Positions 13,822 through 61,228 of a stretch of DNA of 64,000 bases are shown in pieces. The DNA is from Lachnospiraceae bacterium (lineage in GTDB: Bacteria > Bacillota > Clostridia > Lachnospirales > Lachnospiraceae): assembly GCA_017935565.1 (NCBI GenBank), contig JAGBHK010000041.1:18225-82224 (forward strand). The letters run 5' to 3'. The translations under genes and the position numbers were made by a program. The notes below the pieces were generated by a model. The model was not told where the DNA came from, did no database searches, and was given only the letters and a program-made list of their open reading frames with translations. Every line of letters begins with the position of its first letter. Positions within the stretch are counted from its first letter, which is position 1.

Positions 13822-15501
13822 TTAAATTAAGCAAAAATACCTCAATGCATCCTTAATATACTCCACCTTCTCCTGTGGACATTGCTTGACCTCTGCATCA
13901 TCCTTCTTAGATTTATTATAGCATTCACCCATATCTATACCACACATTCTTTTCACCTGTGCGATATAAGATGTATGAACATTTACACCATACTTATCCC
14001 TTACATACTCCTTAATCTTCCCATAAGTTACACGCTCTTCTTCTGTATAGTTACTTTCAGAATCCACTTCCATTGTAACCTCTAGCTTAGGTTGATTTGT
14101 TTTGAGGGATAATAAGGCAACCGTCTCCACATGTGTCGTTCCAGGGAACATATCCACCGCGCACACCTTTTCCACCTTATAACCTCTCTCCTGCAACATT
14201 ACCAAATCCCTTGCAAGACTTGTTGGTTTACAAGAAATGTATACCATTCTATCCACGCCGAAATCGATAATCTTTGTCAATGCCTTTGGATTGATACCAT
14301 CGCGTGGGGGGTCAAGTACTATTAAATCAGGTTTATCCGTCAACTCATCAATTACTTTAAGCACATCGCCTGCAATGAAACTACAATTATCAAGACCATT
14401 TAAAGCCGCATTAATCTTTGCAGCCTCCACCGCTTCCTCGATAATTTCAACACCTGTCACACGTTTCGCCACTGGTGCAAGCATCTGAGCGATTGTACCT
14501 GTGCCGCTATAAAGGTCAAAAATAACTTTATTCTTTGTTTCTCCAACATAACTTCTAGCCTTTTCGTATAGCACTTCCGCACCCAATGAATTTGTCTGGA
14601 AGAATGAGAATGGAGAAATCTTGAAATTAAGTCCCAAAATGCTCTCAATAATGTAATCGCAACCATATAAAATGTCTGTCTTGTCGCTTTGTACCACATC
14701 CGACAAACTATCGTTATATGTATGCAATATTCCTGCAATCTTTCCATTAAGTTCAAGACCAAGCAATTTATCCTTCAAACCGTCGAGCATGTCGCTTTCA
14801 GATAACGTCGCCGCTTGTCCGCACTCATCCCATTTCGATGTTGTTACAAGGTCTATCATTATTTCTTCAGTCTTCTTTGTCCTTCTTACAAGCAAATGAC
14901 GAAGATAGCCTGTGTGCTTCATTTTGTGGTAAAATGCCACATCCATATCCTTGAAATATGAAAGCACCGCCTTAACAATCACATTGTAATCATCATTTAC
15001 AATCTTGCAGGCTTTTATTGAAACAATATCATGAAAACTTCCTTTTTTATGAAGTCCCAATGCAAGTGGACCGTCCTTATATTCATCGCCAAATGAAAAT
15101 TCCATTTTGTTACGATACTCAAAACTTTCAGGACTTCCTATAATGCCTTCAAATTCGTAATTTTCACATACTTCATCAATAATTGTCTTAACCTGTGAAG
15201 CCTTTAATTCAAGCTGTTTTTCATATGGAACATCCTGATAAACGCAACCGCCACAGTCTCCAAAATGTGGACATTTTGCTTCCTGCGACTGCATTTCTGA
15301 CTTCTCAATCACCTCTAATAATCTTGCCTCACAATTTCCAGAACGCTTTTTGTTAACCTGCGCTTTTACCACTTGCCCTGGCAATGTTCCTTTTACTGTT
15401 ACTTTAGTTATTTTTCCATCTTCTTCCTGACAAACTAAAATTCCCTTGTTAGGGAATTTCAGTTCGCAGATTTTTCCTGTTATAATCTGACCTTTTTTCA
15501 T
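13822..15501 (-). CDS. rlmD: 23S rRNA (uracil-C5)-methyltransferase, RlmD/RumA family
   Basis: Methylates a uridine of 23S rRNA at C5 using SAM. Order: N-terminal TRAM domain (about 1-60); iron-sulfur cluster cysteines CPHFGDCGGC with a later Cys; RNA-binding middle; Rossmann domain with IFDLYSGTGTI; LDPPRDG; catalytic VYISCKP. After the usual end near residue 455 there is an extra domain of about 90 residues (YGKIKEYVRDKYGVNVHTSY...MCGIDMGE...CPQEKVEYIKDALRYF), an add-on I recall from many clostridial homologues. The exact target (U747 or U1939 type) cannot be told from sequence. Confidence 0.9.
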   Translation of the reverse strand: MKKGQIITGKICELKFPNKGILVCQEEDGKITKVTVKGTLPGQVVKAQVNKKRSGNCEARLLEVIEKSEMQSQEAKCPHFGDCGGCVYQDVPYEKQLELKASQVKTIIDEVCENYEFEGIIGSPESFEYRNKMEFSFGDEYKDGPLALGLHKKGSFHDIVSIKACKIVNDDYNVIVKAVLSYFKDMDVAFYHKMKHTGYLRHLLVRRTKKTEEIMIDLVTTSKWDECGQAATLSESDMLDGLKDKLLGLELNGKIAGILHTYNDSLSDVVQSDKTDILYGCDYIIESILGLNFKISPFSFFQTNSLGAEVLYEKARSYVGETKNKVIFDLYSGTGTIAQMLAPVAKRVTGVEIIEEAVEAAKINAALNGLDNCSFIAGDVLKVIDELTDKPDLIVLDPPRDGINPKALTKIIDFGVDRMVYISCKPTSLARDLVMLQERGYKVEKVCAVDMFPGTTHVETVALLSLKTNQPKLEVTMEVDSESNYTEEERVTYGKIKEYVRDKYGVNVHTSYIAQVKRMCGIDMGECYNKSKKDDAEVKQCPQEKVEYIKDALRYFCLI

Positions 15502-15521
15502 TTTTAGTTTCCTTTATTCTT

Positions 15522-16931
15522 CTAATAATATTCAACACTACATGTCAAAGTAGTTATTGAGTAACCTCGATCTGTAGAACTATGGCAATCCACACCATAT
15601 TTGTATCCAGATGCGCCTGCCGGATGAGTTACTGCTCCAGATTGCAAGTAAGTTCCATATTGTGCCTTAACATTATTCATGATAGTTTCATAATTCAAAG
15701 AATCCTCCGCATAAATCAATGCAAATTCAGTTATCCCTTGTTTAAAATAGTTCTGTGCAGCAGTATTACCTTCAGCATATGATGTTATTTTTGTATATGG
15801 AGTATTTCCAATCAATTTCTTAATAGCCCATGTATCTACAGTTGTGTAGAAATCCTTCGATGTACATGAGATAGCGTCAAAACCATAGTACTCTTCGATA
15901 GTATGATCTTTTGTCATATCTGCTGTAGTAATAAGGAAATATTGATAACAAAGGTTTGCACCTTTAGGATCATTTTGTACACCATTCAATGCTGGGTCAT
16001 CCCATGTTACGTCTACCTGATACCACTTTCCACCTATCTTTACAATATTCCATTCATGTCCAACAGGGCCTGAACCACTACCATTATCTGCATCACCTGT
16101 AAGAATTCTAGCATCAATACCTGCTGTCCAACAAAGAAGGAAAAACGCTTCTGAATAACCTTCACATACTACATTTTTTCCAACCAATGCGCCTTCTGCT
16201 GTCAATGCAGACTCGTTTGCTGTACCGCCACCCTGAATATTCGCAGCTGCATCATAATTATAATTAATATTCTTAACCATCCAATCATGTATAGCCTTAA
16301 CTCTCTCAACTTCAGTCATGCTTGTCTTTAAAATGCTATTTAAAACTGTAACTGCAGCACTTTTAGCAGCATCTGAAATTCCTCTTCTTGAATATTTCTC
16401 CAAATTATCTTCTGAAAGAGGATTAATGATTGGACCATAATTAGTTGTTGTTGACGACTGCTGTTTTGTCGTAGTAGGTGTTGTAGTTGTAGCAGACGGC
16501 TTCTTTGTAGTTGTTTCCTGCGTAGTCGTAGCAGCTGGTTTCTTCGTAGTTGTAGGTTCTGTTGTAGTAGCCGGCTTCTTTGTGGTTGTTTCCGCAGGCT
16601 TTGTTGTCGTGTTTTCTTTTGTAGTTTCAATCACACTACCATCAGGCGTCGTTTCTCCTGCAATTGACTCACTACTCGTAGAATCATTTGATTCAGTTTC
16701 TCCACCTGTTGTCTCACTTTCGCCAGACTCTTCCACACTTGATTCATCACCTGATATTTCAGTTTCATCACTGGAGTCTTTATCATCATTTTCCGTAGTC
16801 TTCTTCTCATCCGAAACAGTTTCGTTTTTCTTTGCACTGCTAGATTCACTATCTTCTTTTACACAAGCAGCCATACTACTTACTATTAATGCTAATGTTA
16901 AAACAAGTACCAACAATTTTTTCATTTTCAT
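15522..16931 (-). CDS. transglutaminase-like domain lipoprotein
   Basis: A 469-residue secreted lipoprotein. Signal peptide with lipobox around Cys22 (SSMAAC); a long Ser/Thr/Glu-rich linker with TTTKKPA-like repeats (about 25-170) that probably spans the cell wall; then a transglutaminase-like core with Cys in VVCEGYSEAF, His in VGHEWN and Asp in YQVDVTWDD, a complete papain-like triad. In Firmicutes such proteins act on surface proteins or cell-wall peptides; the substrate is unknown. GGAGG sits before the start. Confidence 0.9.
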   Translation of the reverse strand: MKMKKLLVLVLTLALIVSSMAACVKEDSESSSAKKNETVSDEKKTTENDDKDSSDETEISGDESSVEESGESETTGGETESNDSTSSESIAGETTPDGSVIETTKENTTTKPAETTTKKPATTTEPTTTKKPAATTTQETTTKKPSATTTTPTTTKQQSSTTTNYGPIINPLSEDNLEKYSRRGISDAAKSAAVTVLNSILKTSMTEVERVKAIHDWMVKNINYNYDAAANIQGGGTANESALTAEGALVGKNVVCEGYSEAFFLLCWTAGIDARILTGDADNGSGSGPVGHEWNIVKIGGKWYQVDVTWDDPALNGVQNDPKGANLCYQYFLITTADMTKDHTIEEYYGFDAISCTSKDFYTTVDTWAIKKLIGNTPYTKITSYAEGNTAAQNYFKQGITEFALIYAEDSLNYETIMNNVKAQYGTYLQSGAVTHPAGASGYKYGVDCHSSTDRGYSITTLTCSVEYY

Positions 16932-24507: not shown

Positions 24508-25995
24508 TTATTCTTCATCGTCTTCATACTCGTCGTCTTCGTACTCGTCGTCTTCATATTCATCGTCTTCATACTCATCGTCTTCGTACTCGTCGTCTTC
24601 GTATTCATCATCATCTTCTTCTTCATACTCATCATCTTCGTATTCATCGTATCCTTGACGCTTCTTAATAACAATAAATACTACAACGCCTACAACAATA
24701 ACTACTGCAACAACTACTATAATAATGATTAATAAACCATTGTCTGATTTCTCTTCCGTAACTGCTGCTGTTGTTGTTTCTTCATTTTTCTTCTTTCCTG
24801 AAGCAGAACGTTCAACAATCTCACTGTCTGCTGATGCACCTACATTGTTTACTGCAACAACTTTATATTCATTATTATCTGTATCTAATTTTTCAGTTGT
24901 AGTATATGTAGTTAATTCAGTCTGTTTAACAACTTTCCATTCACCATCAACCTTATGATATACAAAATAAACCTGCGCCTTTGAATCAACGCCCCACTGT
25001 ATTGTAAATACTTTTTCTTTATTTTGTTTTATCTGAATCGATGGAGTATTTGGTTTTGCTGTTGGTAATGCGGCACTTGAAAGATTTTTCACAAAATATT
25101 CTTCACCTGTTTCTTTCAAGCCTTCAACAATCAATCTAGCCATCTGTACAGCACCATATGTTTGGAAATTCTCCTTATCAGCTGCACCATCTTTCATTTC
25201 TGTATTGTACTCACCAGGTTCACAGAATAAAAATACTTTTTTAAGTTCTTCTTCTGTCAAAGTAGAATAGAAATCCAATGATTTCTTCTCCATATCAATA
25301 AGAAATGTATCATACTCTGCTGCTAAATCTCTTACGACCTGCGCATAATCTGCATATGTTGAAATAAACTTTCCACTTTCATCAGTTTTCCAATCTGCAA
25401 TCGGTGTAACTAAAATAACTTTAAGTTGTCTTTCAGTTGCTTCGTCCAAAAATTTGATAAGATATGTTCTGTATTCCTCTAATGTAACATAATTATCCTG
25501 TGCATGTGCCTTATCTTCTGCACTCATAGAATCATCAGGTTTCAAGCCATCATCCTGACCAAACTGAACTAATAAATAATCTCCTGGTTGAGCTCCTCCA
25601 GCTTTATTCAATAATGAATCCAACTTATTTTCAGGAGTAGTCTGTCTACTTGGAAATCCATACAAATACGTCTTTACTGAATAATCATCAGCCGCATTGT
25701 GGTGAACTCTTAATGCTTGATTATCTGTTACAAACATAGGAAGTCCCTGTAACCAACCTGCTTTAGGATTATATGTTCCTGTATTGTATGCATCCTTTCC
25801 TGTTTCCCAGTCAAACACTGTTGAATCACCAGCTATATACAACTGTCTATAGCCTCTCTCTGTAGCAGGTTTTGTTTCTTCTTCAACCACTGCACTCTCT
25901 GACTCAGTCTCATCTGCAAAAACCAAACCACTAAAAACCGTTGATGACAAAATCACGAACATCATCAACATCGACAACAATTTTTTCTTCTTCAT
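24508..25995 (-). CDS. SGNH-hydrolase-fold surface protein with acidic repeat tail
   Basis: A 495-residue protein: signal peptide (about 1-27), SGNH/GDSL domain like rhamnogalacturonan acetylesterases (block I AGDSTVFDW, block III LVQFGQDDG), an Fn3-like module (about 320-400), a transmembrane helix (about 430-455), and a tail of repeated D-D-E-Y-E units. The expected block V Asp-x-x-His is replaced by a region reading DKENFQTYGA, so the catalytic His seems lost and hydrolase activity is doubtful. ATG 25995 has AAGGAG ten bases upstream; ATG 26001 is an alternative. Co-transcribed with the PilZ gene. Confidence 0.8.
   Translation of the reverse strand: MKKKKLLSMLMMFVILSSTVFSGLVFADETESESAVVEEETKPATERGYRQLYIAGDSTVFDWETGKDAYNTGTYNPKAGWLQGLPMFVTDNQALRVHHNAADDYSVKTYLYGFPSRQTTPENKLDSLLNKAGGAQPGDYLLVQFGQDDGLKPDDSMSAEDKAHAQDNYVTLEEYRTYLIKFLDEATERQLKVILVTPIADWKTDESGKFISTYADYAQVVRDLAAEYDTFLIDMEKKSLDFYSTLTEEELKKVFLFCEPGEYNTEMKDGAADKENFQTYGAVQMARLIVEGLKETGEEYFVKNLSSAALPTAKPNTPSIQIKQNKEKVFTIQWGVDSKAQVYFVYHKVDGEWKVVKQTELTTYTTTEKLDTDNNEYKVVAVNNVGASADSEIVERSASGKKKNEETTTAAVTEEKSDNGLLIIIIVVVAVVIVVGVVVFIVIKKRQGYDEYEDDEYEEEDDDEYEDDEYEDDEYEDDEYEDDEYEDDEYEDDEE
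24511..24612. repeat. 15-bp tandem repeat encoding DDEYE units
   Basis: About six to seven copies of a 15-base unit (cgtcttcatactcgt and variants) lie inside the 3' end of the SGNH gene. All stay in frame, so copy-number slippage would lengthen or shorten the acidic cytoplasmic tail without truncating the protein. Confidence 0.85.
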
Positions 25996-26011
25996 AATCA
26001 TCACGCTCCTT

Positions 26012-26665
26012 TTATTCATTAGAAGAATTATTTCCCATTCTGTTCGCCAAGATTCTCTGCTGTTTTTCACCTATATATTTTCCTAAAATAGGGCTAGGTA
26101 AATCCAACTTACATCCTAGCAAGATTCTACCATTTCTATCCTCCATTCTTACAATTTTTCCCACTAAATCAAGGACTGTCTTCAACTCTTCGTCCTTATG
26201 TACAACTCTTATAGGTCCGCCAATCTCATACGGAACATTAGGATCAATAATAACTGCAAACCCACTATAACTAACATCTCTAAGTGTCATCTGCAATGCT
26301 TCTTTATTTCTTCCGATTCTACCTTTAGCTGCGCCACCAATAGCCAATCTAAAATCGCCACGTCTATTAACTTCTTTAGCGTCGAATTTGCTACCAATTC
26401 TAACCATGACATTATTTTTAGCAACAACCATCTTTATCTCGCAATCAGTCCACATAAGCGGCTTGTCTTGTTCTCGGTCAATCATCACGCTAACTTTCAA
26501 TTCACCAGTTTCAAGATTAATAACTTTACCGTCAACACGAACCGCTGCAATCAAGATATCCTTACCTTTAGTTCCAACGCAACTCGATTTCAAATTTAAA
26601 GTTTTATCACCGAAAAGAATTACTAATGTAACTTCGGTTCCCAATTCCATTTCGTAAATTTTCAT
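26012..26665 (-). CDS. PilZ-domain c-di-GMP-binding protein
   Basis: A 217-residue protein with an N-terminal YcgR-like beta domain and a C-terminal PilZ domain. The ligand motifs are NRRGDFR (RxxxR type, about 103-109) and DVSYSGFAV (D/N-x-S-x-x-G). It should bind cyclic di-GMP and relay it to a partner. It stops 16 bases before the SGNH gene. The diguanylate cyclase gene three genes upstream is broken by the prophage, which may affect signalling to this receptor; that is inference. Confidence 0.85.
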   Translation of the reverse strand: MKIYEMELGTEVTLVILFGDKTLNLKSSCVGTKGKDILIAAVRVDGKVINLETGELKVSVMIDREQDKPLMWTDCEIKMVVAKNNVMVRIGSKFDAKEVNRRGDFRLAIGGAAKGRIGRNKEALQMTLRDVSYSGFAVIIDPNVPYEIGGPIRVVHKDEELKTVLDLVGKIVRMEDRNGRILLGCKLDLPSPILGKYIGEKQQRILANRMGNNSSNE

Positions 26666-28283: not shown

Positions 28284-30008
28284 TTAATTTCCACCCATTT
28301 TATGCAGCATTTTTTCTTCATACATCAATTTATCTGCTACTTCAAAATAATTATTAATATTGCTACCATAATCATCAGAAGATAGAACAATACCTATGCT
28401 TAATTGTATATTAATTTCTTCTGCGGCTTCATTTATATTTTCCTTAACTAACTTAGCGTTTTCACCTGTAGCATCTGGGAAAAACATAATAAATTCATCG
28501 CCGCCGTATCTGCACGCATAACCGCCCCTTGGGCAATTTGAATCAATAATCCTAGCCACTTTTTTCAACACTTCATCTCCATACTCATGGCCGTATGTAT
28601 CATTAATCTGCTTAAATTTATCTACATCAATAAATGCAATCGCACATACTACACCTTTTTCATAATACTTCTTAAATTCTGGTGCAATCAATTCAGCATA
28701 CGCAACTCTATTATAAATTCCTGTAAGCTGATCCTTATTATAAATATCTTTCAGTTTTTTGTTTACAACCGAAAGTTTAATATGGTCATATAATGATTCC
28801 ATATCCTTTACAAGTATATTATGGAGATTATAAAAACTTGGATTATCGTATAAAAACTTTGCATTTTTTATTATTGTGTATCCAATAGTATATTGTCTAA
28901 AATGAATCGGTGTAAATAAATATTCATTTCTTGCTCCACTTTCTTCAATGTATGAATTCATTTCATCTACTGAAGAAAATTTCAAATTAATTCCTTTATC
29001 ACAGGCAAATACAACTTTCAAGTTTTCTTTATTATATCCTACAGTTTTAAACTTGTTTCTCTTTTCTCCTTCGATAAATAGTTTATCAATAATTACAAAA
29101 AATCCTTCACAATCAAACTCTGAAAAGAATTCATTCATGCAAGCATACAATCCTACAAATTCATTGCATTTAGCCATTGCACTTTCAAGTTCACTAATTC
29201 TCTCGTCTTGTGTAGCTTGTTTTACACCATAAATGATTTGCTCTTTCATATACTGTCTATAATCTACAGAACCGTTATTCTCACATCCACAACTTTCTGC
29301 AAATATGCATTTTGTATCGGTGTAATTATATTTTCTAGGTTGCTTGCCTTCCCATATATCAAATAATACTTCCATGCAACGACCAGATATTTCACCTCTA
29401 TTATGATGGTCAACAGTAGTTATCTGTGGCGTAAAATATGCCGCCTTATCTAAATTATCAAACCCCGTTACCTTAAAGTCTCTAGGTACAATATACCCCA
29501 TTTTTTCCGCTTGAGTACAAATGCCCGCAGCAATATTATCGCATGCGCATACCACTACATCTGGTATAGATTTACCTGACTGCACATATTCTTTAAAGAA
29601 TTTTTCTCCTGATGCAAAATCATAATCCAAATAATACACTGGATTATCTTCACGACTTAATCCCATTTTATCTACAAACTCAATGTAAGCCCCAACTCTA
29701 CTTTCATTTTCATAATTGTCTTTTGGGCCTCCTGCAAACACAAAACTTCTGCAACTATGAATATCATACATATGATTCAATAAATCTTTTATAGGCTTAC
29801 TATTATCAATGCCTGCATAATAAAAGCCGTCAATATCAATAGAAATACTAACTGCAGGAACATTACTTTTTCTAATCAATCCAGTCACATAATTAAAAAC
29901 TTTTTCATCATTAATATTATTTCCATCAAAAATAATACCATCATATTGGCTTAAATCCGGAAGATTAAAAATATTGTATTCTCCCTGATTATGAAGTTCG
30001 TCACTACT
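28284..30008 (-). pseudogene. diguanylate cyclase, 3' part (split by prophage)
   Basis: The C-terminal 574 codons of a cytosolic sensor cyclase. A periplasmic-binding-protein-like (LacI-type) sensor domain starts SSDELHNQGEYNIFNLPD; a middle region follows; then a GGDEF domain with the intact motif YGGDEF and no clear RxxD inhibitory site. The open frame runs on into the phage end and could use a TTG there, but the true first 45 codons lie at 61094-61228 on the far side of the prophage. Joining the two at the 5 bp duplication gives an uninterrupted 619-residue protein, so the gene is inactivated by insertion and is restorable. Confidence 0.95.
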
Positions 30009-30013
30009 CCAAT
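30009..30013. repeat. target-site duplication, left copy (CCAAT)
   Basis: The five bases CCAAT lie directly outside the left phage end TGTAAGC. The same five bases follow the right end (61094-61098). Five base pairs is the duplication size known for Mu. Confidence 0.9.
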
Positions 30014-30060
30014 TGTAAGCTCGCAAAAAAAATGTCAATTTTTCGCACTTAAAATGTCAA
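30014..30060 (-). repeat. left-end transposase binding sites L1 and L2
   Basis: Read on the minus strand, L1 (30038-30014) and L2 (30060-30041) both start TTGACATTTT and continue to a TGCGA core. L1 extends exactly to the phage terminus. They match R1 and R2 at the other end. The consensus TTGACATTyTTTrTGCGA is derived here by eye; binding by the MuA-like protein is inferred. Confidence 0.8.
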
Positions 30061-30166
30061 TTTCAAAAATTTTGAAATTAGAAAATAAATTTTAATCAAA
30101 AATAAACACTTTTATCTCTCATTAAAATTCATTTTAACATCTTTTTGATTATTTTTAAAGTTTCAT
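30061..30166. other. AT-rich phage left-end leader, no gene
   Basis: About 100 bases of very AT-rich sequence between the transposase sites and the first fibre recombination site. I see no coding frame, hairpin or promoter I would defend. Confidence 0.5.
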
Positions 30167-30188
30167 TTAAATAAATAGCAATTTAACT
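30167..30188 (+). repeat. fibre recombination site S1
   Basis: Contains the shared core ATAAATAGCAATTTAA (30171-30186), plus orientation. It is identical to S2 over 22 bases. In frame it encodes INSNL at the head of cassette 1. Confidence 0.85.
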
Positions 30189-30512
30189 TCAACTGGATTA
30201 TGGAAAGAATTAACTCTTCTTAATAGTTGGTCAGGCAGTTTAAAAGCAAGGATAGATACTTTTCACAAACAAGTATTTGTATGTGGTTATGTATACGCCA
30301 CAGCATCTGTTACTAATAACTCCTTTTGTAACTTGTCGGGGAATAGTTTGCCAACACCGATAAATAATTCTATTAGTATTGGTGTTCCTTGTTACAAATC
30401 AGGTGGTGTAGTATGTTATGTATACGCGTATAACAACCAGTATTTGACACTTGCAGGAAATGTAAGTAAACCTGCATATGTTAATATTGATTTTTCTTAT
30501 AGGTATGATTAA
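30171..30512 (+). CDS. silent tail-fibre C-terminal cassette 1
   Basis: A start-less open frame of 113 codons beginning INSNLTSTGLWKELTLLN and ending SYRYD. The composition (Gly, Asn, Ser, Tyr-rich, beta-like) suits a receptor-binding tip. It has no ATG or ribosome binding site of its own and would be expressed only after inversion fuses it to the fibre gene at the shared INSNL codons. Its stop overlaps that of cassette 2 by 3 bases, so the two are packed tail to tail. Confidence 0.8.
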   Translation: MNSNLTSTGLWKELTLLNSWSGSLKARIDTFHKQVFVCGYVYATASVTNNSFCNLSGNSLPTPINNSISIGVPCYKSGGVVCYVYAYNNQYLTLAGNVSKPAYVNIDFSYRYD

Positions 30513-30826
30513 TAACCTATAGCAAGCCATCTTACAGAATAGTTAACGGAAGCGATTCCGCCACTAGGGTCTATGACATTAAAATTTGCCTTGGTCGTTG
30601 TAACAGTATTTGTTGCTGTATGAAGCCTCGATGTAGTCGAACCATTGTCCGTGTTTACAAGAGAAACAATTGTTGTAGGTGGATTGGTGTATGTTACAGG
30701 AAATGTAACTGCAGCCTGTCGGTAATATCCGTTTAGATTTGTTGTAGAGTTTCTTCCCCAACAAACTTTTAAACCACCAGGAAGAACAAATTTACCATCT
30801 TCTTTTTGAGTTAAATTGCTATTTAT
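30509..30826 (-). CDS. silent tail-fibre C-terminal cassette 2
   Basis: A start-less frame of 105 codons starting INSNLTQKEDGKFVLPGGLK and ending VRWLAIGY. The pattern WGR, then FPVTYTNPPTTIVSL, then W-x-A-x-GY at the end, is typical of C-terminal receptor-binding domains of phage tail fibres. Silent for lack of a start; expressed only by recombination at S2. Confidence 0.85.
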   Translation of the reverse strand: MNSNLTQKEDGKFVLPGGLKVCWGRNSTTNLNGYYRQAAVTFPVTYTNPPTTIVSLVNTDNGSTTSRLHTATNTVTTTKANFNVIDPSGGIASVNYSVRWLAIGY

Positions 30827-30830
30827 TTAA
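30809..30830 (-). repeat. fibre recombination site S2
   Basis: Same core as S1, opposite orientation (core 30826-30811). S1 and S2 share 22 identical bases, so they can invert cassettes 1 and 2. Confidence 0.85.
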
Positions 30831-30882
30831 CCTTTTCTTTAATATTTTAAAAATTGTTAAAAATCTTTTAAACACGCAAATA

Positions 30883-30904
30883 AAGCTCATACAGTTATGA
30901 GCTT
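30883..30904 (-). terminator. terminator of the recombinase gene
   Basis: Perfect stem AAGCTCAT/ATGAGCTT with a six-base loop, followed on the minus strand by TATTTG. It sits about 26 bases after the recombinase stop codon. Confidence 0.65.
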
Positions 30905-30930
30905 CGAACGAGATATTCAATTACCCATAG

Positions 30931-31896
30931 TCAGGCTATATATTTTTTATGCGACATTTGGATATTATTAACATCAACATTACAATATATCATTGTTGTT
31001 TCTATTTTACTGTGTCCTAATAATGCTTGGACTTCCTGTATTGGCATACCTTTATTTATCCCCCTGGTTGCAACAGTTCTCCTGAATTTATGAGGATATG
31101 CTTTTATATTAATCTTTAAACCTAAATCTTTAATAATTTTTTCAACGCTATTTTTTGTCATTCGTTTATATAATCCATCAGTTTTATTATAGTTGATGAA
31201 TAATGCTTCATTATTATCTTTTCTGGTGCCAAGATACTTATTTACATAATATAACGCTTTATCCGAGAAATACACATGTCTTTCCTTGTTTCCTTTTCCA
31301 CGTATAACTGCAGTTCCTTGCTGTATATCTGATATATTTATATTACAAAGTTCAGATACTCTCACTCCTGTAGTATTCAACACCTCAATAATCGCTTTAT
31401 CTCTAATATTCATTGCTGTTTCTCTCATTTTTTCAACTTCCAATTCACCAAAAGAAGACTTTACAACCTTTAATTCTCTGACAGGCTTTGTTTTTCTTAC
31501 TGGATTACATTTAATTATATCCTCAAATTCCAGATAATTGAAAAAGGCTGATATAAAACGCCTCATATTATTAAGAGTTACATTACTTATTCCATGATAT
31601 TCCCTATATTCCGCCAAATATCTTTCTATATCCCTTTTATCAATATCTTCCACTCGTTTGTTAATGTGCGCCAAAAACTTCTCATTTTCACGCTTATACT
31701 GTGCTATCGTTTGTTCTGAACAATTCTCATAAACTTTGCTAGAAATAAAATCATCAAGCAGCTTATTATTGCTTATTTTATTCTCTGAATATTGCATTTC
31801 AAATTCTTTCAACAAAGTTTCTTCTAAAAGTTTCATTTGTTCACTGTTTAACGAATCTTTCATAGTTTTTAAAACATTCTTTAATATTATGTTCAT
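30931..31896 (-). CDS. tyrosine recombinase, fibre-switching (Rci-like role)
   Basis: A 321-residue phage-integrase-family recombinase with all catalytic residues: Arg179 (TGVRVSEL), Lys201 (RGKGNKER), His269 and Arg272 (HKFRR), His295 (LGHSKI) and Tyr304 (TMIYCNVD). An N-terminal SAM-like core-binding domain lies at about 45-130. ATG 31896 follows GGAGGTGG; a frame five codons longer is not needed. The prophage moves by a DDE transposase, so this enzyme is not its integrase. Its location among four inverted sites makes it the likely invertase. The protein resembles XerC/D-type enzymes more than serine invertases such as Gin. Confidence 0.85.
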   Translation of the reverse strand: MNIILKNVLKTMKDSLNSEQMKLLEETLLKEFEMQYSENKISNNKLLDDFISSKVYENCSEQTIAQYKRENEKFLAHINKRVEDIDKRDIERYLAEYREYHGISNVTLNNMRRFISAFFNYLEFEDIIKCNPVRKTKPVRELKVVKSSFGELEVEKMRETAMNIRDKAIIEVLNTTGVRVSELCNINISDIQQGTAVIRGKGNKERHVYFSDKALYYVNKYLGTRKDNNEALFINYNKTDGLYKRMTKNSVEKIIKDLGLKINIKAYPHKFRRTVATRGINKGMPIQEVQALLGHSKIETTMIYCNVDVNNIQMSHKKYIA

Positions 31897-31936
31897 ATAA
31901 GCCACCTCCATAAAAAAGAATAGCTTATATGAACAT
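31889..31936. repeat. 14-bp inverted repeat across recombinase start and site S3
   Basis: ATGTTCATATAAGC (31889-31902) and GCTTATATGAACAT (31923-31936) are perfect complements 20 bases apart. The left arm covers the recombinase start codon region, the right arm abuts recombination site S3. It could be an accessory binding site or a hairpin that masks the recombinase start; no T-run follows. Confidence 0.7.
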
Positions 31937-32288
31937 AAATAGCAATTTAACTAACTTTAGCATTAACGCTTATTCATTAGTTATAAGTGCAAATTTAACT
32001 ACAAATAATACGACATACACTCTATATGATGAAAGAAAATTTTCAGATTATGATTTTATTACAATAACAATTGGTGCTTCAACTTCTGATATACGTGCAG
32101 AAATGACTTTACCTAGAAGTGTTTTTACATCAGGTAAACAACTATTTTTGGATTGTCATTCTAATAATGGTAATACCTGGCATCAAGTTGCAGTTAAATA
32201 TGCAAGTGATAAAACTATAACGGCGTTTACTTCAACGGGTGCGACTGTTAAATATCTCAATATTTATGGATACAAAAAAATGTATTAG
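31929..32288 (+). CDS. silent tail-fibre C-terminal cassette 3
   Basis: An open frame of 119 codons starting MNINSNLTNFSINAYSL and ending YGYKKMY. The INSNL codons come from site S3. There is an ATG but no good ribosome binding site, so it is probably silent in this orientation. It converges on the expressed fibre gene, the two stop codons overlapping by 4 bases, which is the geometry of a paired invertible C-terminus. Confidence 0.8.
   Translation: MNINSNLTNFSINAYSLVISANLTTNNTTYTLYDERKFSDYDFITITIGASTSDIRAEMTLPRSVFTSGKQLFLDCHSNNGNTWHQVAVKYASDKTITAFTSTGATVKYLNIYGYKKMY
31935..31952 (+). repeat. fibre recombination site S3
   Basis: Core ATAAATAGCAATTTAA plus CT, plus orientation; shares 18 bases with S1 and S2. 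Paired with S4 it would swap cassettes 3 and 4. Confidence 0.85.
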
Positions 32289-35200
32289 GTACCGACCACA
32301 ATTACGTTGACATTCCCGCTCAATGTAGAACCATAATAATTTTGATAGTTAATAATAATTGTACTCTTGTTCGTATCATTCCATCCAACTGGATGAACTA
32401 CTACCCAGTCGCTATTAGCCGAATGAGTTATTATAAAGAAAGAAGCTGTTGAATAACTTTTTCCAAGTGAAACAGTTGTTTTGGCGGCTCTACCTAGGGA
32501 TGCAGTAGATGAAAAATTCATTGCAACGGTGTGAACGCCTAGTACCTTTAGTGAAGTTTTTAAATTGCTATTTATTGCTTCTATTCCCTCAGTTAACGAA
32601 TCCAACTCACTTAACAACATCCTACTTCTATAGCCTGAAGATAATGTTTCTTCTTGCAAATTAACAATTTCTATATCGCCATTTGTAAGGATAGATAATC
32701 CATGATTTGGTGAAAACAGACCACTTCTCTTTTCTTCTGAAGTACTTTGTCCACCATACCAACTTGTGGTTTTTTCGACACCACCAACATATACACTGTC
32801 ATCTTCTTCAAATGGTTTTGAGCCAACCTTCAAACCTTCAATTTTATATAATACAGACTGTACATTTCCACTTGATTCAGAAGTTGACTCACCCAGAACC
32901 ATATTTACATCTTCATCTATGCTTGATATGAACTTTGACCCAGTAAATGAACCTTCTTTTAAAGTAACATTTCCCTTTTCATCCATTTGAAAATTAGTAG
33001 ATTGAATTATCAACCTATTTGATAATATCTTTATAACATCTGCAGCCGCATTAATTTCAGAAATCAATGTCTCTTTATCAACCTTAAGAGATAATTCTGC
33101 CTGAATACTATTTGCAACCTCCCACGAAGCATCACATACTGCCGTGGTATATGTTTTTGTACCATCAGAATATGTTATTACGCTTCTAGTCCAAACATAT
33201 TTATCTTTTGACCAAGTAGGAGCTGCAGAACTCCATGAACCTCCTGCCAATGCTGTTTTACTTGTAGATACATAATATTGAGGAACAATACTACTAACAG
33301 TTAAACCGTCAGCACCCGCTGCTCCTGTTTCACCCTTGGCTCCTGTTTCGCCATGTGTTCCTATTATTCTTACTGATGTATTACTTGTGGTTCCATCCGT
33401 ATATGTAATCTTTTCATAGTTCCAAAGGTACTTCTTGGTTGTAGTCGTTGTCTGTAGACTTGTTGTCCATCCACTTGTTGAAGTTGTCACTCCACTTGCT
33501 GAGGATGAAGCAAGGTAATAATCCACCATTGATACTATTCCTTTTCCATCACTTCCATTACTTCCATCTTTTCCTGCCGCCCCAGTTGCTCCTGTTGCTC
33601 CTGTTTCACCCTTGGCTCCTGTTTCGCCATGTGTTCCTATTATTCTTACCGATGTATTACTTGTGGTTCCATCCGTATATGTAATCTTTTCATAGTTCCA
33701 AAGGTATTTCTTGGTCGTAGTCGTTGTCTGAAGACTTGTTGTCCATCCATTTGTCGCAGTTGTTACTCCGCTTGCTGAGGATGAAGCGAGGTAATAATCC
33801 ACTATTGATGTTATTCCTTTTCCATCACTTCCATTACTTCCGTCTTCTCCATCTTTGCCATCTTTTCCATTCGCACCATCCTCGCCATCTTTTCCATTTC
33901 GACCGGGAAGACAAATTGGAACACTTTCCACGGTAGTTTCATCACCGTATGTGGTTATTGTTTTCTGCCACATATACATTCCGTCAATCCATGTCGGAGC
34001 TTCTACATTCCAGCCATCATCTGGTGCTGTTTCGCAACTATCCGATAATGCATACACAACCTGTATTCCTACTACACCAGTATCACCAAGTGTAGCTACC
34101 TTTTCGATAAGTACTTTTAATTCGTTGTCTGTCTGTATTATCTCATTGTTAAGATTTTCCTCAAGATTTGTTATAAGTAATGAAGTAGCTTCCACTGTTC
34201 GTTTCAATCTATTCATTTTATTCTTAAGTTTAATTACATCCTCTGCAATACCAAAAGATTCACCTGTAGTCTTTGTTCCTGAAGACTTGATTACATCTTT
34301 TAAACCTTGAGTTCCTGATAAGGTACGTTGAAGTATCAATCCAACAAAACTTTCACCACTGGTAAGCTTATATGATACCTGTTGTCCACATTTTATGTAC
34401 GGCAATCCAATCTGTTCAGATGTATATGGAATGTATGTTATATCTTTAATAACTTCATATATATTAGCGGCCAATACTTCCAACTTTTCTGTACTGCTGC
34501 CATATATAAGAAAATTATCCTGTACAATATATGCATTGTCACCCTCGCCTGCAGAACCACCAATATCACCATCTTCTGTTCTAACATTTACCCTGGTAAA
34601 TTTATTAACGGTATAATTCTCTGTTTTGAGTGTTTTATAATGCTTAACTTCCAAGTATTCATTCACTACATTTGTATCAAGTGTTATAAATTCTATCTTT
34701 CCATCAGCTGCTGCCCTGAAAAAACCACCATTTAATTCAGCTATACTCTTAAGCACTGTGATACCCTTTATATCTTCAGGAGAAATCGTTTTTTCTAATT
34801 CAACCTCTCCATTAACAAGCGTTACTTCCGCCAATTCTACACCGATATAATCACACAAGCTTTGCAACATTGCATTCATTGTAGTAGGAAACTCTAGCAT
34901 TTCATACCATTCACTAACATTTGTATTGAATAATATAATGTTATCGTATGCAACTATATCTCTATACTTCTTATTCTCTGTAAGCAAACAACTATCAACA
35001 TTGTAAACACCTATATCCACACTATTTTCATTGATTATTTGTTTTAAATTAATCTTTTTATCACTAATATCGCCTATCTCTGCTACCATCTTAAGTTTCA
35101 GCATCGATGCATTACATTCTCCAAACCTAAGCTGCGTATTACTACATAATTTTTCTGTAAGGCTGAATGAGCCAAACACTATGTTCTTATTATCATAATC

Positions 35201-35290
35201 AGTACCATCAATTCCTATTACATAGTTTTTTGATATTGTACTGTCATTTGTCTTCTTATATAATTCCTTTATTTCATCTGATACATTCAT
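32285..35290 (-). CDS. baseplate/tail-fibre protein with collagen-like repeats and switchable C-terminus
   Basis: A 1001-residue structural protein. Residues 1-390 resemble tail-associated hub/baseplate proteins. A coiled region follows, then collagen-like Gly-x-y stretches (near 465-495, 580-610, 675-690) interleaved with two near-identical 92-residue repeats, then a LSLKVDKETLISEINA-type trimer segment, and a C-terminal tip. The last 97 residues or so, from INSNLKTSLKVL, are cassette 4, the form now expressed. The junction is recombination site S4. GGAGG precedes the start. Confidence 0.85.
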   Translation of the reverse strand: MNVSDEIKELYKKTNDSTISKNYVIGIDGTDYDNKNIVFGSFSLTEKLCSNTQLRFGECNASMLKLKMVAEIGDISDKKINLKQIINENSVDIGVYNVDSCLLTENKKYRDIVAYDNIILFNTNVSEWYEMLEFPTTMNAMLQSLCDYIGVELAEVTLVNGEVELEKTISPEDIKGITVLKSIAELNGGFFRAAADGKIEFITLDTNVVNEYLEVKHYKTLKTENYTVNKFTRVNVRTEDGDIGGSAGEGDNAYIVQDNFLIYGSSTEKLEVLAANIYEVIKDITYIPYTSEQIGLPYIKCGQQVSYKLTSGESFVGLILQRTLSGTQGLKDVIKSSGTKTTGESFGIAEDVIKLKNKMNRLKRTVEATSLLITNLEENLNNEIIQTDNELKVLIEKVATLGDTGVVGIQVVYALSDSCETAPDDGWNVEAPTWIDGMYMWQKTITTYGDETTVESVPICLPGRNGKDGEDGANGKDGKDGEDGSNGSDGKGITSIVDYYLASSSASGVTTATNGWTTSLQTTTTTKKYLWNYEKITYTDGTTSNTSVRIIGTHGETGAKGETGATGATGAAGKDGSNGSDGKGIVSMVDYYLASSSASGVTTSTSGWTTSLQTTTTTKKYLWNYEKITYTDGTTSNTSVRIIGTHGETGAKGETGAAGADGLTVSSIVPQYYVSTSKTALAGGSWSSAAPTWSKDKYVWTRSVITYSDGTKTYTTAVCDASWEVANSIQAELSLKVDKETLISEINAAADVIKILSNRLIIQSTNFQMDEKGNVTLKEGSFTGSKFISSIDEDVNMVLGESTSESSGNVQSVLYKIEGLKVGSKPFEEDDSVYVGGVEKTTSWYGGQSTSEEKRSGLFSPNHGLSILTNGDIEIVNLQEETLSSGYRSRMLLSELDSLTEGIEAINSNLKTSLKVLGVHTVAMNFSSTASLGRAAKTTVSLGKSYSTASFFIITHSANSDWVVVHPVGWNDTNKSTIIINYQNYYGSTLSGNVNVIVVGT
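32560..32575 (-). repeat. fibre recombination site S4 (expressed position)
   Basis: The 16-base core ATAAATAGCAATTTAA inside the fibre gene, read as INSNL. After the core it has AA instead of the CT of S1-S3, so it carries a slightly different flank; this may be a footprint of past exchange. Confidence 0.85.
33321..33846. repeat. 276-bp in-frame tandem duplication in the fibre gene
   Basis: Two copies (about 33321-33570 and 33597-33846) offset by exactly 276 bases encode the same 92-residue unit: DYYLASSSASGVTT, WTTSLQTTTTTKKYLWNYE, VRIIGTHGETG. Nearly identical DNA suggests recent duplication; it changes the shaft length. Confidence 0.9.
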
Positions 35291-53419: not shown

Positions 53420-55363
53420 CTACTTTCTATTTTCTTTTTCTGCCTTCAGTCTTCCAAGAGCCTCTGTCCAGTCAATCATATCTTCACCACCAACAACAGC
53501 TGCATATTCATCATATGCATTTTCTTCCTGGTATCTGATTGGAACAATAACGTTTGGAGCTATCTCATATTCATTCTGCATATCCTGTTCAGCTCTCCAT
53601 AATGCCAATTCAAGCTCACTGTCAGTCTGTATGTCTTTTTGTTTCCTATATCCCTTAACAGCCTTAACAGCTGCTCTGTTCTCACGCATAGCCTTTGCAA
53701 TCTCATCCTTGGATGCAAAATAGCTAAGTTGATTTCTAAGAGTTCCCACGCATAAGAATCTATCCTCGATGTCATAAATTCTTACCGTGTTAAGATCATC
53801 CGGATTGTATCTGAAGTATACTGACTCTCCCAAATGATTGATGAGGATTTCATCATTGCCATACCATAATTCTTTATCATATAACTTAAACATGATACCA
53901 TTACGCTTAACTTTCTGCATTCTGCTGTTTCTTAACATCATAAGGTTAAGCTCATCCTCTGTTGCTGTTCTCATCTCAATCAAGTTGCTGGCAAAAACTT
54001 CATCCGGACATTTACCAAACATTCCTTCAGCTTTTGAAGATGTCTTGTTAAGTCCACCTTCAATATATGTGTCAACAAAACGGATAAAATCTTCAATAAC
54101 AACAAGGTTGTCAGGGTTCTTCACAATATATTTAAGTCTCTCTGGTCTTTCAAGAACATTACCACCAGTATAAGCTTCAAACATTTTTGAAAACATTTCC
54201 TTCACATCAAGAAATCTTCTCTCAATAATCTTAGCTTTGGCATTCTTTACCAGAGCAGTCCTAAACTCAATTCCTAACCTCTGTAATATTGTCTTAGGTT
54301 CATGTTCCACCTGTGCAGATTTTCTAAAACCTCGACCACCAATATCATGAGTCAGGAACTCTCGACCGTTATCTGAATAAATCATTTTAGGGATACCAAA
54401 TCGTTCTATTCCTCTTCGAAGAGCATATAATGTAGCATCACTTCGTGGTGCATCCGTAACATACCAGCCAACTATCTTTCGAGAACGCACATCCATAAAT
54501 GCCGTGAGATAAACTCTAACAGGCTCACTGTCCTTGCTGACAAATATATCAAAGGTATGGTTATCAGTTACCCATACATCATTTGATAATAAATCATCGT
54601 ATTTTCTCTTAATATACGGTGCGCATTGGTCATAAAATGCTTTATCTCCAAGTCTGAAATATTTCAATATCGCCACAGGAAGCTTCTCAACCTTTCTTAT
54701 GAAGGTATCATATGAAGGTAATGGAAGAAATTCATCATCCCCATTTTTCATAAGCTGTGTCTCAGTGAGTTTTATGCACTGCGCTATGCTGCGTTGGTTC
54801 TGGTCGAGATAAAAGTTCTCAAAGATATCCCACACATAGTCAGCAAGTGCTTTTTTATGATTTCCATGTCGTCCGCGCTTGTCGATGAGCGACTGCTCAC
54901 CTTCTTCATTAAGAGCTTTCCACTTTCTGTAAAGAGTTCTTAATGTAATCTTGACGGAAGGATATGTAATTGTAGCAAATTCCACAAACTGTTCATCAGC
55001 TGCTTTTTTATCTTTTATGTTATCTCCGCTTCTGAATGTTCTCCAGTTCTGCAGAATTTCCTTCCACAGTTCAATCTCCTGTCTGTCAGCTTCAGATATG
55101 GTTTCATAATCAAGCTTTACAACCTTATTTTCCGGCTCTTCTGTATTCAATTTTTCTTTCTGCTTTTGGATACGCTTGTACTTTGTTATGAGCTTAGGTT
55201 CTATTCCAGGAAGAGGTATACGATATACTTTTCCACCTTTTCCACCACCCTTGACACCATCAACAATCTCCGCATTAATAGTACCTTTATTAATGAGTTT
55301 TATTACATAATAATGAGTACAACCTCTAAGCTCTGCATATTCCTCAACGCTTAAATACTCCAT
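53420..55363 (-). CDS. Mu-like DDE transposase (MuA family)
   Basis: A 647-residue transposase. N-terminal excisionase-like winged HTH (YLSVEEYAELRGCTHYYVIKLINKG); a second HTH region (about 120-200); rve catalytic core with Asp267 (TDNHTFD), Asp331 (YSDNGREF) and Glu381 (KIIERRF); C-terminal Mu-type beta-barrel and tail that should contact MuB and ClpX. The length is close to MuA (663). Unlike Mu, it comes after the MuB-like gene in transcription order, with ten or so genes between. Confidence 0.95.
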   Translation of the reverse strand: MEYLSVEEYAELRGCTHYYVIKLINKGTINAEIVDGVKGGGKGGKVYRIPLPGIEPKLITKYKRIQKQKEKLNTEEPENKVVKLDYETISEADRQEIELWKEILQNWRTFRSGDNIKDKKAADEQFVEFATITYPSVKITLRTLYRKWKALNEEGEQSLIDKRGRHGNHKKALADYVWDIFENFYLDQNQRSIAQCIKLTETQLMKNGDDEFLPLPSYDTFIRKVEKLPVAILKYFRLGDKAFYDQCAPYIKRKYDDLLSNDVWVTDNHTFDIFVSKDSEPVRVYLTAFMDVRSRKIVGWYVTDAPRSDATLYALRRGIERFGIPKMIYSDNGREFLTHDIGGRGFRKSAQVEHEPKTILQRLGIEFRTALVKNAKAKIIERRFLDVKEMFSKMFEAYTGGNVLERPERLKYIVKNPDNLVVIEDFIRFVDTYIEGGLNKTSSKAEGMFGKCPDEVFASNLIEMRTATEDELNLMMLRNSRMQKVKRNGIMFKLYDKELWYGNDEILINHLGESVYFRYNPDDLNTVRIYDIEDRFLCVGTLRNQLSYFASKDEIAKAMRENRAAVKAVKGYRKQKDIQTDSELELALWRAEQDMQNEYEIAPNVIVPIRYQEENAYDEYAAVVGGEDMIDWTEALGRLKAEKENRK

Positions 55364-56998: not shown

Positions 56999-58078
56999 TT
57001 ATTCAAGAATTTCATTTACTCTCTTCTGAACTGCTTCATAACTGTAACCAGCTTTTTCGAGTGCTTCTCTTCTTGCAGCTCCATTTCCCCACTTACCAGC
57101 AATTACCTCTCTAGCAAGTTCTTCAACTGACTTTGTACCTTTTTGCACTGGTTTAATGCTATGTACAAGTTCATTAACTTTAGCCTGAACAGCCTCATAA
57201 CTATAACCAGCTTTTTCGAGTGCCTCTCTTCTTGCAGCTCCATTTCCCCACTTACCAGCAAGCACTTCTTTTGCCAATTCCTCAACTGATTTTACCTGTG
57301 GTTTCTCTTGTGGTTCTGCAGGATCTTTTTCAAGAAGTTTGTTAACTTTTGCCTGGACAGTTTCATAATCATATCCAGCATTTTCAAGTGCTTCTCTTCT
57401 TGCAACTCCGTTTCCCCACTTGCCAGCGATTACTTCTCTTGCAAGTTCTTCAACCGACTTGCCTGGTGCCACTGGTACCAATGTTGGTCCTGCACTATCC
57501 ACGCTATCAAACTCTGCATAATAGTAATCCAAATCAACATTACCTCTGATACCATCAACCGAACCTGTTGAAGTGTATTGCCAAGCAATTTCTCCTAAAT
57601 TTGGTTTTACTGTACTCCATTTTGCAATCCAATAGTTATCAGTTAAGGACTTGATTTCGTCTGTTAATATTGACTTGTACCAATATTGGTTGCAATAGAT
57701 TCCAACCTGATAACCTGCTTCAGATACAATCCCAAGAAATTTCTTTACAATTTCATAGAACAAATCCTTATCAAGGTTCTGCTGGCACTTGTCTTCCAAA
57801 TCTAACCAAACCTTAGCTTCCAACTGTTTACCCCTAAGCACATCTACTACCGCTTTAGCTTCAGCCTCCGCCTCATCCACTGTGGTAGCATAACTGTACT
57901 TGTAAACTCCGACTGCTAATCCATTCTCTTTTGCCTCTTTGTAATTGTATTCGAAGCATGCATCTACATACAAATCTCCGTCAACACAACGTATGATGGC
58001 AAATTGAATTCCTGCAGCTGCTACCTTTTTCCAATCAATAGCACCCTGCCATCGGCTTACATCAATGCCTGTATACAT
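56999..58078 (-). CDS. endolysin: GH25 lysozyme with three CW_7 repeats
   Basis: 359 residues. GH25 muramidase (about 1-195) with Asp6 (GIDVSRWQG) and Asp93/Glu95 (WLDLED), cutting the glycan strand. Then three Cpl-7-type wall-binding repeats (about 208-248, 265-305, 318-358), each SVEELAxEVxAGKWGNG plus ARREAL. The last two are nearly identical in DNA. No signal peptide, so release needs a holin. Unusual place: among early genes between MuB-like and MuA-like genes instead of with the holin. Confidence 0.95.
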   Translation of the reverse strand: MYTGIDVSRWQGAIDWKKVAAAGIQFAIIRCVDGDLYVDACFEYNYKEAKENGLAVGVYKYSYATTVDEAEAEAKAVVDVLRGKQLEAKVWLDLEDKCQQNLDKDLFYEIVKKFLGIVSEAGYQVGIYCNQYWYKSILTDEIKSLTDNYWIAKWSTVKPNLGEIAWQYTSTGSVDGIRGNVDLDYYYAEFDSVDSAGPTLVPVAPGKSVEELAREVIAGKWGNGVARREALENAGYDYETVQAKVNKLLEKDPAEPQEKPQVKSVEELAKEVLAGKWGNGAARREALEKAGYSYEAVQAKVNELVHSIKPVQKGTKSVEELAREVIAGKWGNGAARREALEKAGYSYEAVQKRVNEILE

Positions 58079-58778: not shown

Positions 58779-59696
58779 TCACCTGCTTCCTATATTCATT
58801 TCCTTAGTCATTCGAGCCAATCCCTGAGGAGTAATATCTCCATATACGGCAGCAGTGTTTACATATACATTAACAGCTCCTCTTAATCCATAATTGGTTC
58901 TAGCAATCTTAAACAGGATATCCTGACTTTCTTCATCATCACCAATCGCTGAAAATACTGCTCTTATATCATCTTTGCTTAAGGTATTAGTCATCACCTG
59001 TTTTCTCATGCCGATACGACTAAATAACTGTGCAAAATCAGCTCTACCACTACCTTTGAGTTTTGTGTAAACTTCATCATTACCCACAAGAGTGATACCA
59101 ATTCCACTTTCATCAGCCATACATCTTATATGATTAAGAGTTCTAACGGTCAGATGCTGAGCTTCATCAATGATGATTACTCTGCCACTATCCTTAAGTT
59201 TTGTGATGATTTCCGCATACAATTTTCTTGACACACGTTCTCTTACGCCAAGCTGATCAGCGATAAGTTCATTCACACCGGACATACTTGCATATGAAGG
59301 TGATATGGTTATTTTTACTGCAAGAGTATTTTCTTTACAGTACTGATTTATAGCCATTGTCTTACCTATTCCTGCATCACCATACACAACTGCTATCTTT
59401 CCTTGTATATGGCTGTATGTGATAGCCGTTTCCACAGCCTGGCTAACTCTAGTTGGTACAAATGACGGTTCTCTTGGAGCTATCTCCTTGCGTTCCGAAA
59501 CAGTTAACAGTGCTTGAACCTTTGGAATAATAGTATGTGGTGCTTTATAAGTTCCACTTAAAAAACTGCTTAATTGAGCTCCACTTACTCCGAGTTCCTT
59601 TGCTATTAGTGTTTGGCTCTTACCTGTTTTCTCCTTGTAATCCTGAACCAACTGTCTAGCCTCGGCTTCATTCATATTAAGTTGTGTGTTTTCCAT
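58779..59696 (-). CDS. MuB-like AAA+ transposition ATPase
   Basis: 305 residues. N-terminal HTH (SQTLIAKELGVSGAQLSSFL), AAA+ core with Walker A YGDAGIGKT (about 106-113) and Walker B VIIIDEAQHL (about 170-179), sensor TLVGNDE. In Mu, MuB picks target DNA and activates MuA. First gene of the early operon; AGGAGG precedes ATG 59696. Confidence 0.9.
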   Translation of the reverse strand: MENTQLNMNEAEARQLVQDYKEKTGKSQTLIAKELGVSGAQLSSFLSGTYKAPHTIIPKVQALLTVSERKEIAPREPSFVPTRVSQAVETAITYSHIQGKIAVVYGDAGIGKTMAINQYCKENTLAVKITISPSYASMSGVNELIADQLGVRERVSRKLYAEIITKLKDSGRVIIIDEAQHLTVRTLNHIRCMADESGIGITLVGNDEVYTKLKGSGRADFAQLFSRIGMRKQVMTNTLSKDDIRAVFSAIGDDEESQDILFKIARTNYGLRGAVNVYVNTAAVYGDITPQGLARMTKEMNIGSR

Positions 59697-59751
59697 AAAA
59701 TTCCTCCTTTTAATCACCTTTTTAAATAATTTTTAAAAAGTTTAAAAACTA

Positions 59752-61093: not shown

Positions 61094-61228
61094 CCAATTT
61101 CCATAACAATTATAATGGTGTAATGTAACTTCTTCTGCATATTCATTTATTTTAATCATTATCCCATCAGCCCAGGCATAGATAATGTTTCGCTTCCATC
61201 CATCAGATATTAAAGCAACCTTCTTCAT
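61094..61228 (-). pseudogene. diguanylate cyclase, 5' part (split by prophage), with right CCAAT duplication
   Basis: The first 45 codons (MKKVALISDGWKRNIIYAWA ... NCYGNW) of the cyclase whose remainder is at 28284-30008. GGAGG lies before ATG 61228. It begins the LacI-type sensor domain. After the Trp codon the reading frame enters the phage end and stops four codons later. The bases 61094-61098 (CCAAT) are the right copy of the target duplication. Confidence 0.92.

Follow-up and report, generated by a model that had tools for sequence, protein, structure and literature searches.

Introduction

The exchange of protein ends by site-specific inversion is known from several bacterial and phage systems. 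Multiple inversions by a tyrosine recombinase exchange the C-termini of an adhesin in the R64 Rci shufflon. For phages, one study describes Rin of Bifidobacterium prophages, a tyrosine recombinase that swaps receptor-binding C-termini of 95-100 residues by inversions visible in sequencing reads, and suggests that tip switching may help to explain the difficulty of plaquing bifidophages (PMC6109161); Eggerthella lenta clade 1 prophages carry Rin too (PMC8778435). Broader surveys report hsdS inversions in 13 species together with prophage inversions, mainly in tail fibres, in four Proteobacteria species (PMC5903667), treat bacterial invertons (PMC7511551), and call inversions in gut phage long reads, no such locus as the one treated here being described in the passages of that last survey consulted (PMC11323893). 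Here we analyze 64,000 nucleotides of DNA from a Lachnospiraceae bacterium (assembly GCA_017935565.1, contig JAGBHK010000041.1, positions 18,225 to 82,224; hereafter the window, whose own numbering is used throughout), in which a 2.4-kb block at one end of a Mu-type prophage is very probably a self-contained shufflon that offers the tail fibre of the phage a choice of four tips.

Organization of the proposed switch locus

The block starts 157 bp inside the left end of the prophage and is ordered S1(+) T1 / T2 S2(-) / recombinase(-) / S3(+) T3 / T4 S4(-), then the constant part of the fibre gene, with S1 to S4 denoting four short sites and T1 to T4 the tips that they head (Table 1). All four sites are exact copies of ATAAATAGCAATTTAA in the alternating orientations +, -, +, -, a fifth exact copy being absent from the window, and every one reads I-N-S-N-L in the frame of the fibre and of the tips. 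Only the site at 32575 is preceded by a long open frame (908 aa), which is that of the fibre gene. Two hallmarks of a shufflon are present here: a set of at least three short sites, some in either orientation, from which alternative C-termini of a single constant gene are read in frame, and a gene for a site-specific recombinase. As to the third, inversion products within one population, the window's own assembly shows none, and three relatives' assemblies have duplicated junctions. An earlier reading made from the letters of the window had claimed four identical sites heading INSNL frames, one of them the end of the fibre gene, and two tail-to-tail cassette pairs around a complete tyrosine recombinase; exact matching, frame analysis, the order of the sites and the intact recombinase gene bear out both statements. 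Its remark that the other three frames are start-less or unexpressed needs a small correction, in that T3 has an ATG at 31929, two codons upstream of 31935, with no evident ribosome-binding site.

None of 200 dinucleotide-shuffled versions of the window contained the motif, and among 1000 shuffles of positions 29901-32900 some 16-mer occurred four times in one and three times in one. With up to three mismatches the motif occurs 8 times in the window against a mean of 5.03 in shuffled sequence, a number that 18 of 100 shuffles reach and that is not above chance; the case therefore rests on the exact copies. The stretch common to S1 and S2 extends to 22 bp, reaching upstream of the frame to a position behind a stop codon. 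The tips themselves are mutually unrelated, the best blastp match between different tips having an E value of 0.88 and forced global alignments giving 56-62% nucleotide identity. Gp53-like_C and H-type lectin models match T2 with E values of 5.9e-10 and 6.9e-6. Neither a comparison of the tips with 50,697 phage records nor one with 59 cassette frames of relatives returned anything resembling them, the fibre and tips gave no match to PF01420 (Methylase_S), the fibre end, folded from its sequence alone, gave a model of insufficient quality (mean pLDDT 45.4), and no Rfam family was found in 29900-33000. Within the fibre gene there are also tandem 263-nt copies, 93% identical, at 33312-33850.

The recombinase is intact (PF00589, E 1.2e-38), and its earlier designation as a tyrosine recombinase stands. 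Pfam recognizes a SAM-like core-binding domain and Phage_integrase only, an arm-binding domain being absent. The best family model is the XerA-type NF040815 (226.4 bits vs a cut-off of 220), with the cut-offs for XerC and XerD far from reached, and the nearest solved sequences are XerC-like, XerA and XerD. Residues R184, K206, H274, R277, H300 and Y309, which we take to be catalytic, are invariant across 24 relatives. The best-ranked plasmid match (38.8% identity) adjoins a gene for a restriction subunit S; this match and the XerA-type model leave the epithet "Rci-like" unsupported in the sense of descent, Rci being judged here by its description only.

Table 1. Positions of the proposed switch locus and of the prophage that carries it (window numbering)
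Feature	Position	Strand	Remarks
Site S1	30171-30186	+	exact ATAAATAGCAATTTAA
Silent tip T1	30171-30512	+	113 aa + stop; no family found
Silent tip T2	30509-30826	-	105 aa + stop; Gp53-like_C / H-type lectin domain
Site S2	30811-30826	-	exact ATAAATAGCAATTTAA
XerA/XerC-like tyrosine recombinase	30931-31911	-	likelier start 31896 behind GGAGGTGG
Inverted repeat in recombinase leader	31887-31938	-	16-bp perfect arms 31887-31902 / 31923-31938; could hide recombinase ribosome-binding site and start in read-through RNA
Site S3	31935-31950	+	exact ATAAATAGCAATTTAA
Silent tip T3	31935-32288	+	117 aa + stop; no family found
Active tip T4	32285-32575	-	96 aa + stop, current end of fibre gene; no family found
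Site S4	32560-32575	-	exact ATAAATAGCAATTTAA; within fibre gene
Tail fibre / tail-tip protein	32285-35290	-	1001 aa, partly collagen-like; constant upstream of 32575
MuA-type DDE transposase	53420-55363	-	does integration; PHROGs / family matches
Complete Mu-type transposable prophage	30014-61093		TG...CA ends; 5-bp CCAAT duplication at 30009-30013 and 61094-61098

Recurrence of the layout in relatives

Single-protein scans with the window recombinase gave no match in viral or genome contigs, and scans of viral contigs with the constant part of the fibre and with the transposase gave none either; relatives were obtained instead through whole-genome searches, through the use of relatives' recombinases as queries, and through an alignment query. 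In what follows, genomes, contigs and loci carry our labels G, C and L. Among seven other genomes searched, one (G006, of the same genus) has an enzyme 67% identical to that of the window, and in a draw from the family 52 of 397 genomes, own included, match the recombinase at E <= 1e-45. Among the 40 stretches examined, namely 39 of 59 listed relative places and G006, 22 have a 13-mer in at least three copies, in both orientations, no more than 5 kb from the enzyme. Two locus classes can be told apart in these 40 stretches, shufflons of Type I restriction hsdS genes and tail-fibre loci, some stretches being unclassed. IMG/VR contributed 7 and 27 loci.

A strict test asked for four sites of alternating orientation, the inner two no more than 300 bp from the enzyme and the other two farther out, as a 12-mer with one mismatch allowed. 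This four-site layout is present in 7 of 41 loci (window included) and in 13 of 34, together 20 of 75, and in the wider sets in 3 of 80 and 6 of 79. These counts include duplicates: L078 and L080 are the same sequence, as are L044 and L093, L131 and L071 are one locus, and of the six loci in the last set four are already present in the second. The matches in L137, L210 and L241 may be due to chance, and L062, L071 and L136 may be other than fibre loci. After one shuffle of the flanks per locus it was found in none of the sets (0/75 in the first two), and the three-site layout under the same test is present in 3, 3, 4 and 4 loci vs 0, 0, 1 and 1 once the flanks are shuffled. In relatives, too, the recombinase gene has the repeats on either side of it. 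The sites vary between phages and agree within one phage, taking in most fibre loci the form (A/T/C)TAAAT(A/G)GYAA, which reads (I/L)-N-(S/G)-(N/K); others vary, and L082 reads L-N-D-N. On a tree of 74 recombinases, scored with our own locus labels, the fibre label requires three changes and the hsdS label two, and the window forms with L034 and L094 a starred group (98/89) whose placement relative to the rest is poorly supported. A related clade of recombinases (L035-L038, L041, L045, L048) had no repeated sites nearby in the scans.

Two generalizations were considered and given up. Not all four-site relatives are fibre switches, 14 of the 40 stretches looking, by our labels, like hsdS shufflons (L042, L049, L050, L052, L053, L055, L057-L061, L065-L067); four of these 14 were submitted to Pfam, and all contain Methylase_S (PF01420). 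The sites of the hsdS-like loci, which carry relatives of the recombinase, include ATAAACGATAATTTA and the like, reading I-N-D-N-L and resembling the phage site. Nor do Mu-type relatives generally carry such a locus: among 12 stretches from 10 genomes, some of them short of the fibre end, only in L300 are inverted sites accompanied by a tyrosine recombinase of full length, L297 showing no more than a 40-aa match. In L300 (G423), a Mu-type prophage, the locus is a two-tip version comprising a fibre frame (14281-15225), a convergent silent tip of 87 aa, 15-bp sites in inverted orientation and, at 15516-16517, the frame of a tyrosine recombinase, and a tyrosine enzyme in place of Gin is therefore not unique to the phage of the window.

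Signs of switching

Comparison of assemblies of related strains, which the sequence-only reading had suggested as a check, brought to light swapped tips, inverted blocks and duplicated junctions. The active tip of L084 is a silent tip in L085 (94%, 115 aa), and the partner tips match too (72%); the active tip of L092 is silent in L086, in two near-copies (87 and 90%); and that of L083 is 88% identical to a silent tip of L086 and 78% to the active one. In 3 of the 16 locus pairs with hits, cassette blocks are inverted (87-97%) within surrounding DNA that is otherwise collinear (90-98%). Six silent sites in L083, L084 and L092 read TAAAATAGCAA: immediately ahead of the core they have a stop codon in place of the TTA of the active site, and the exchange should therefore fall to the right of that base.

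Contig ends point the same way in three relatives' assemblies. Contig C53 of G006 ends inside the cassette adjoining the third site, and the 141 bases that run from the site to its end recur at the end of contig C65, where different sequence precedes them; the last 87 bases of L073 (G043) and the last 55 of L074 each repeat another junction of the same locus. Overlaps of such lengths, read as assembler k values, are as expected where an assembly graph branches at a site. L090 and L091, which end about 130 bp past the recombinase with no site, were excluded from the contig breaks. The recombinase runs in the direction of the fibre in 22 of 26 loci and opposite to it in four (L034, L064, L068, L075), orientations having been entered by hand, so the middle segment has turned over as well.

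The recombinase leader

In the window the inverted repeat of the recombinase leader forms a predicted hairpin (z -5.97) that covers the ribosome-binding site and the start codon. Hairpins with different stem sequences are predicted in L034, L070, L073, L074, L075, L076, L077 and L080 (z -4.0 to -6.8), and with z <= -4 in 9 of 25 loci, window included, as judged with a crude start finder, so that the feature is not general: 7 of 9 loci have it in the group of the window, L034 and L068-L080, 2 of 15 in the clade of L044, and L095 lacks it. In L074-L077 the loop holds a TACAAT element, and a transcript starting there would therefore lack the 5' arm. Promoter-like patterns in 30000-32800 of the window are not above chance (18 vs a mean of 15.6). 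Locks against read-through are known for some transposases, and we hypothesize that the hairpin is such a lock, directed against read-through from the fibre operon.

Proposed mechanism and alternative explanations

In the mechanism that we consider very probable, the tyrosine recombinase would recombine the 16-bp sites in inverted orientation, so that S1-S2, S2-S3, S3-S4 and S1-S4 could each be inverted and any one of the four tips could be joined, at INSNL and in the same reading frame, to the constant fibre. As the sites alternate, reasoning gives these four inversions and 16 reachable arrangements, four per tip. Each virion would then carry one of the four tips, and the phage population would hedge over host receptors. 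The scheme presumes that the recombinase of this phage acts on its four sites, that receptors are bound by the tips, and that deletion is much rarer than inversion; the evidence for activity, good if indirect, comes from relatives. The four-choice fibre switch of the sequence-only reading is upheld as regards sites, frames, intact enzyme and recurring layout, and inversion itself is suggested by the signs in relatives.

Several observations weigh against this scheme. Directly repeated sites could also yield deletion; T1, T3 and T4 gave no recognized domain in family searches (three of four tips); orientation is mixed in only 3 of 16 locus pairs with hits; and at four of the seven contig ends tested (L068, L077, L078, L079) the contig ends at a site with no second exact copy in the locus. 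The overlaps of 141, 87 and 55 bases, moreover, are telling insofar as these lengths can be taken for usual assembler k values. Finally, at the level of the assembly the window has one arrangement only, with no alternative junction. This last point is shared by the explanation that the layout is inherited and the enzyme or its control dead here, the silent tips being a stock for rare homologous recombination, which we regard as unlikely: the recombinase is intact with the residues that are invariant in its relatives, the four sites are still identical though the tips are unrelated, and homologous recombination has only 16-22 bp to use because the tips are unrelated outside the sites.

The recombinase could alternatively be the integrase or resolvase of the phage, next to which the repeats would be incidental, and its Xer-type kinship and its grouping with integrases in PHROGs would agree with that. 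Against it stand the MuA- and MuB-like proteins of the element, its TG...CA ends and its 5-bp duplication; as a Mu-type element it integrates by MuA, for which reason the recombinase is not needed for integration; with the enzyme placed between repeats in relatives too, we give this explanation very little credence. Still less can be said for the idea that the repeats reflect conservation, at the protein level, of a coiled-coil end with INSNL. Relatives and hsdS loci do read (I/L)-N-x-(N/K) at this place, but all 16 bases, third positions included, are identical in four otherwise unrelated frames, the identity of S1 and S2 runs on upstream of the frame, and sites that differ between phages agree within each. 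Least plausible of all is a host recombinase acting in trans, with another role for the phage enzyme: the genome does contain two further recombinase matches, but these are only 34 and 30% identical, and the distances between the phage gene and the inner sites are about 25 and 105 bp, relatives too having a recombinase at that place.

Returning to the shufflon as the preferred explanation, we can tentatively extend it, though we rather doubt the extension, to a distinct and widespread class of phage shufflons in Lachnospiraceae and neighbours, in which two convergent pairs of tips would flank an invertible recombinase whose lineage flips restriction hsdS genes as well. In one branch the recombinase start would be locked by a hairpin formed only in RNA that reads through from the fibre operon, whereas transcripts of the recombinase itself would begin within the loop and escape the lock. 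If this were true, flipping would be shielded from late transcription, and an attack switch of phages and a defence switch of bacteria would have their enzyme lineage in common and use similar sites.

The prophage and its surroundings

The 31.1-kb prophage has readable ends, CCAAT followed by TGTAAGC on the left and TTCACA followed by CCAAT on the right. MuA- and MuB-like proteins (the MuB-like ATPase at 58779-59717), TG...CA ends and a 5-bp target duplication are all present, which confirms the earlier designation as a Mu-like phage, and further genes encode GemA, Gp27, Mu F-like proteins and an S24 repressor. PHROGs matches comprise terminase, portal, major head and tape-measure proteins. 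No tail sheath was seen among the proteins scanned, which cover part of the genes; of the description "siphovirus-type Mu relative", the second half is well founded and the first is suggested by that scan. MuA relatives were found in 2 of 397 genomes of the family at E <= 1e-60 and in 15 of 392 genomes of the order at E <= 1e-80, own included in both.

The insertion has divided a host gene whose product would be a LacI-like sensor carrying a GGDEF domain; its C-terminal portion is found to the left of the prophage (28284-30008) and its N-terminal portion to the right (from 61099). A GH25-type lysozyme with three CW_7 cell-wall repeats is encoded at 56999-58078, and a host protein at 24508-26070, judging from its sequence, opens with a signal-like stretch, contains a membrane segment and ends in an extended acidic tail of EYEDD repeats.

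Implications

The range of hosts open to a temperate gut phage depends in part on switching of its tail tip. With a compact four-tip module recurring among Lachnospiraceae phages, their variation in host range would become testable, and the module may help to explain why such phages plaque poorly. Because contigs break at the sites, tips drop out of assembled phage genomes, and receptor predictions based on one assembly can be misleading. A switch of phage attack and one of bacterial defence would, in addition, be tied together by a recombinase lineage flipping phage fibre tips as well as bacterial hsdS genes.

Comparison with known systems

The sequence-only reading is partly supported: it was right in substance and too strong on novelty, since the kind of system that it held to be possibly undescribed has been described as Rin (PMC6109161; PMC8778435). 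In the open-licence literature, surveyed by titles and the openings of abstracts, we recognized no description of a four-tip fibre shufflon with the recombinase in the middle, or of any such shufflon in Lachnospiraceae phages. Rin resembles the locus of the window in being borne by a prophage, in joining a constant N-terminal part to several unrelated C-termini of about 100 aa with a short site at each junction, in using an armless tyrosine recombinase made up of core-binding and catalytic domains, and in showing inversions between prophages. The two differ, by description only, in that the small Rv genes of Rin lie between the constant gene and a recombinase at the edge, whereas the window recombinase stands between two pairs of tips and is itself invertible; in that the Rin site is TTCCCTAACCC and that of the window AT-rich; and in that Rin phages integrate by a tyrosine integrase and the phage of the window is of Mu type.

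The G segment of Mu with Gin, like Cin of P1 and Min of p15B, shares with our locus an invertible fibre end near one end of a transposable-phage genome (described in part in PMC6109161). Gin is a serine recombinase, whereas the enzyme of the window is a tyrosine recombinase (PF00589) that serves four tips. R64, compared by description only, switches a pilus adhesin on a plasmid and has its recombinase at the edge, whereas that of the window is in the middle. The hsdS shufflons (L050, L058, L061, L066) have a related tyrosine recombinase, four sites with the same alternation and the site reading I-N-x-N-L; the parts that they exchange are Methylase_S halves of about 200 aa, whereas those of the window are fibre tips. 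As far as the literature surveyed shows, the variant described here is new in its layout, with the recombinase in the middle, four tips, and Lachnospiraceae phages as carriers, and the kind of mechanism is that known as Rin.

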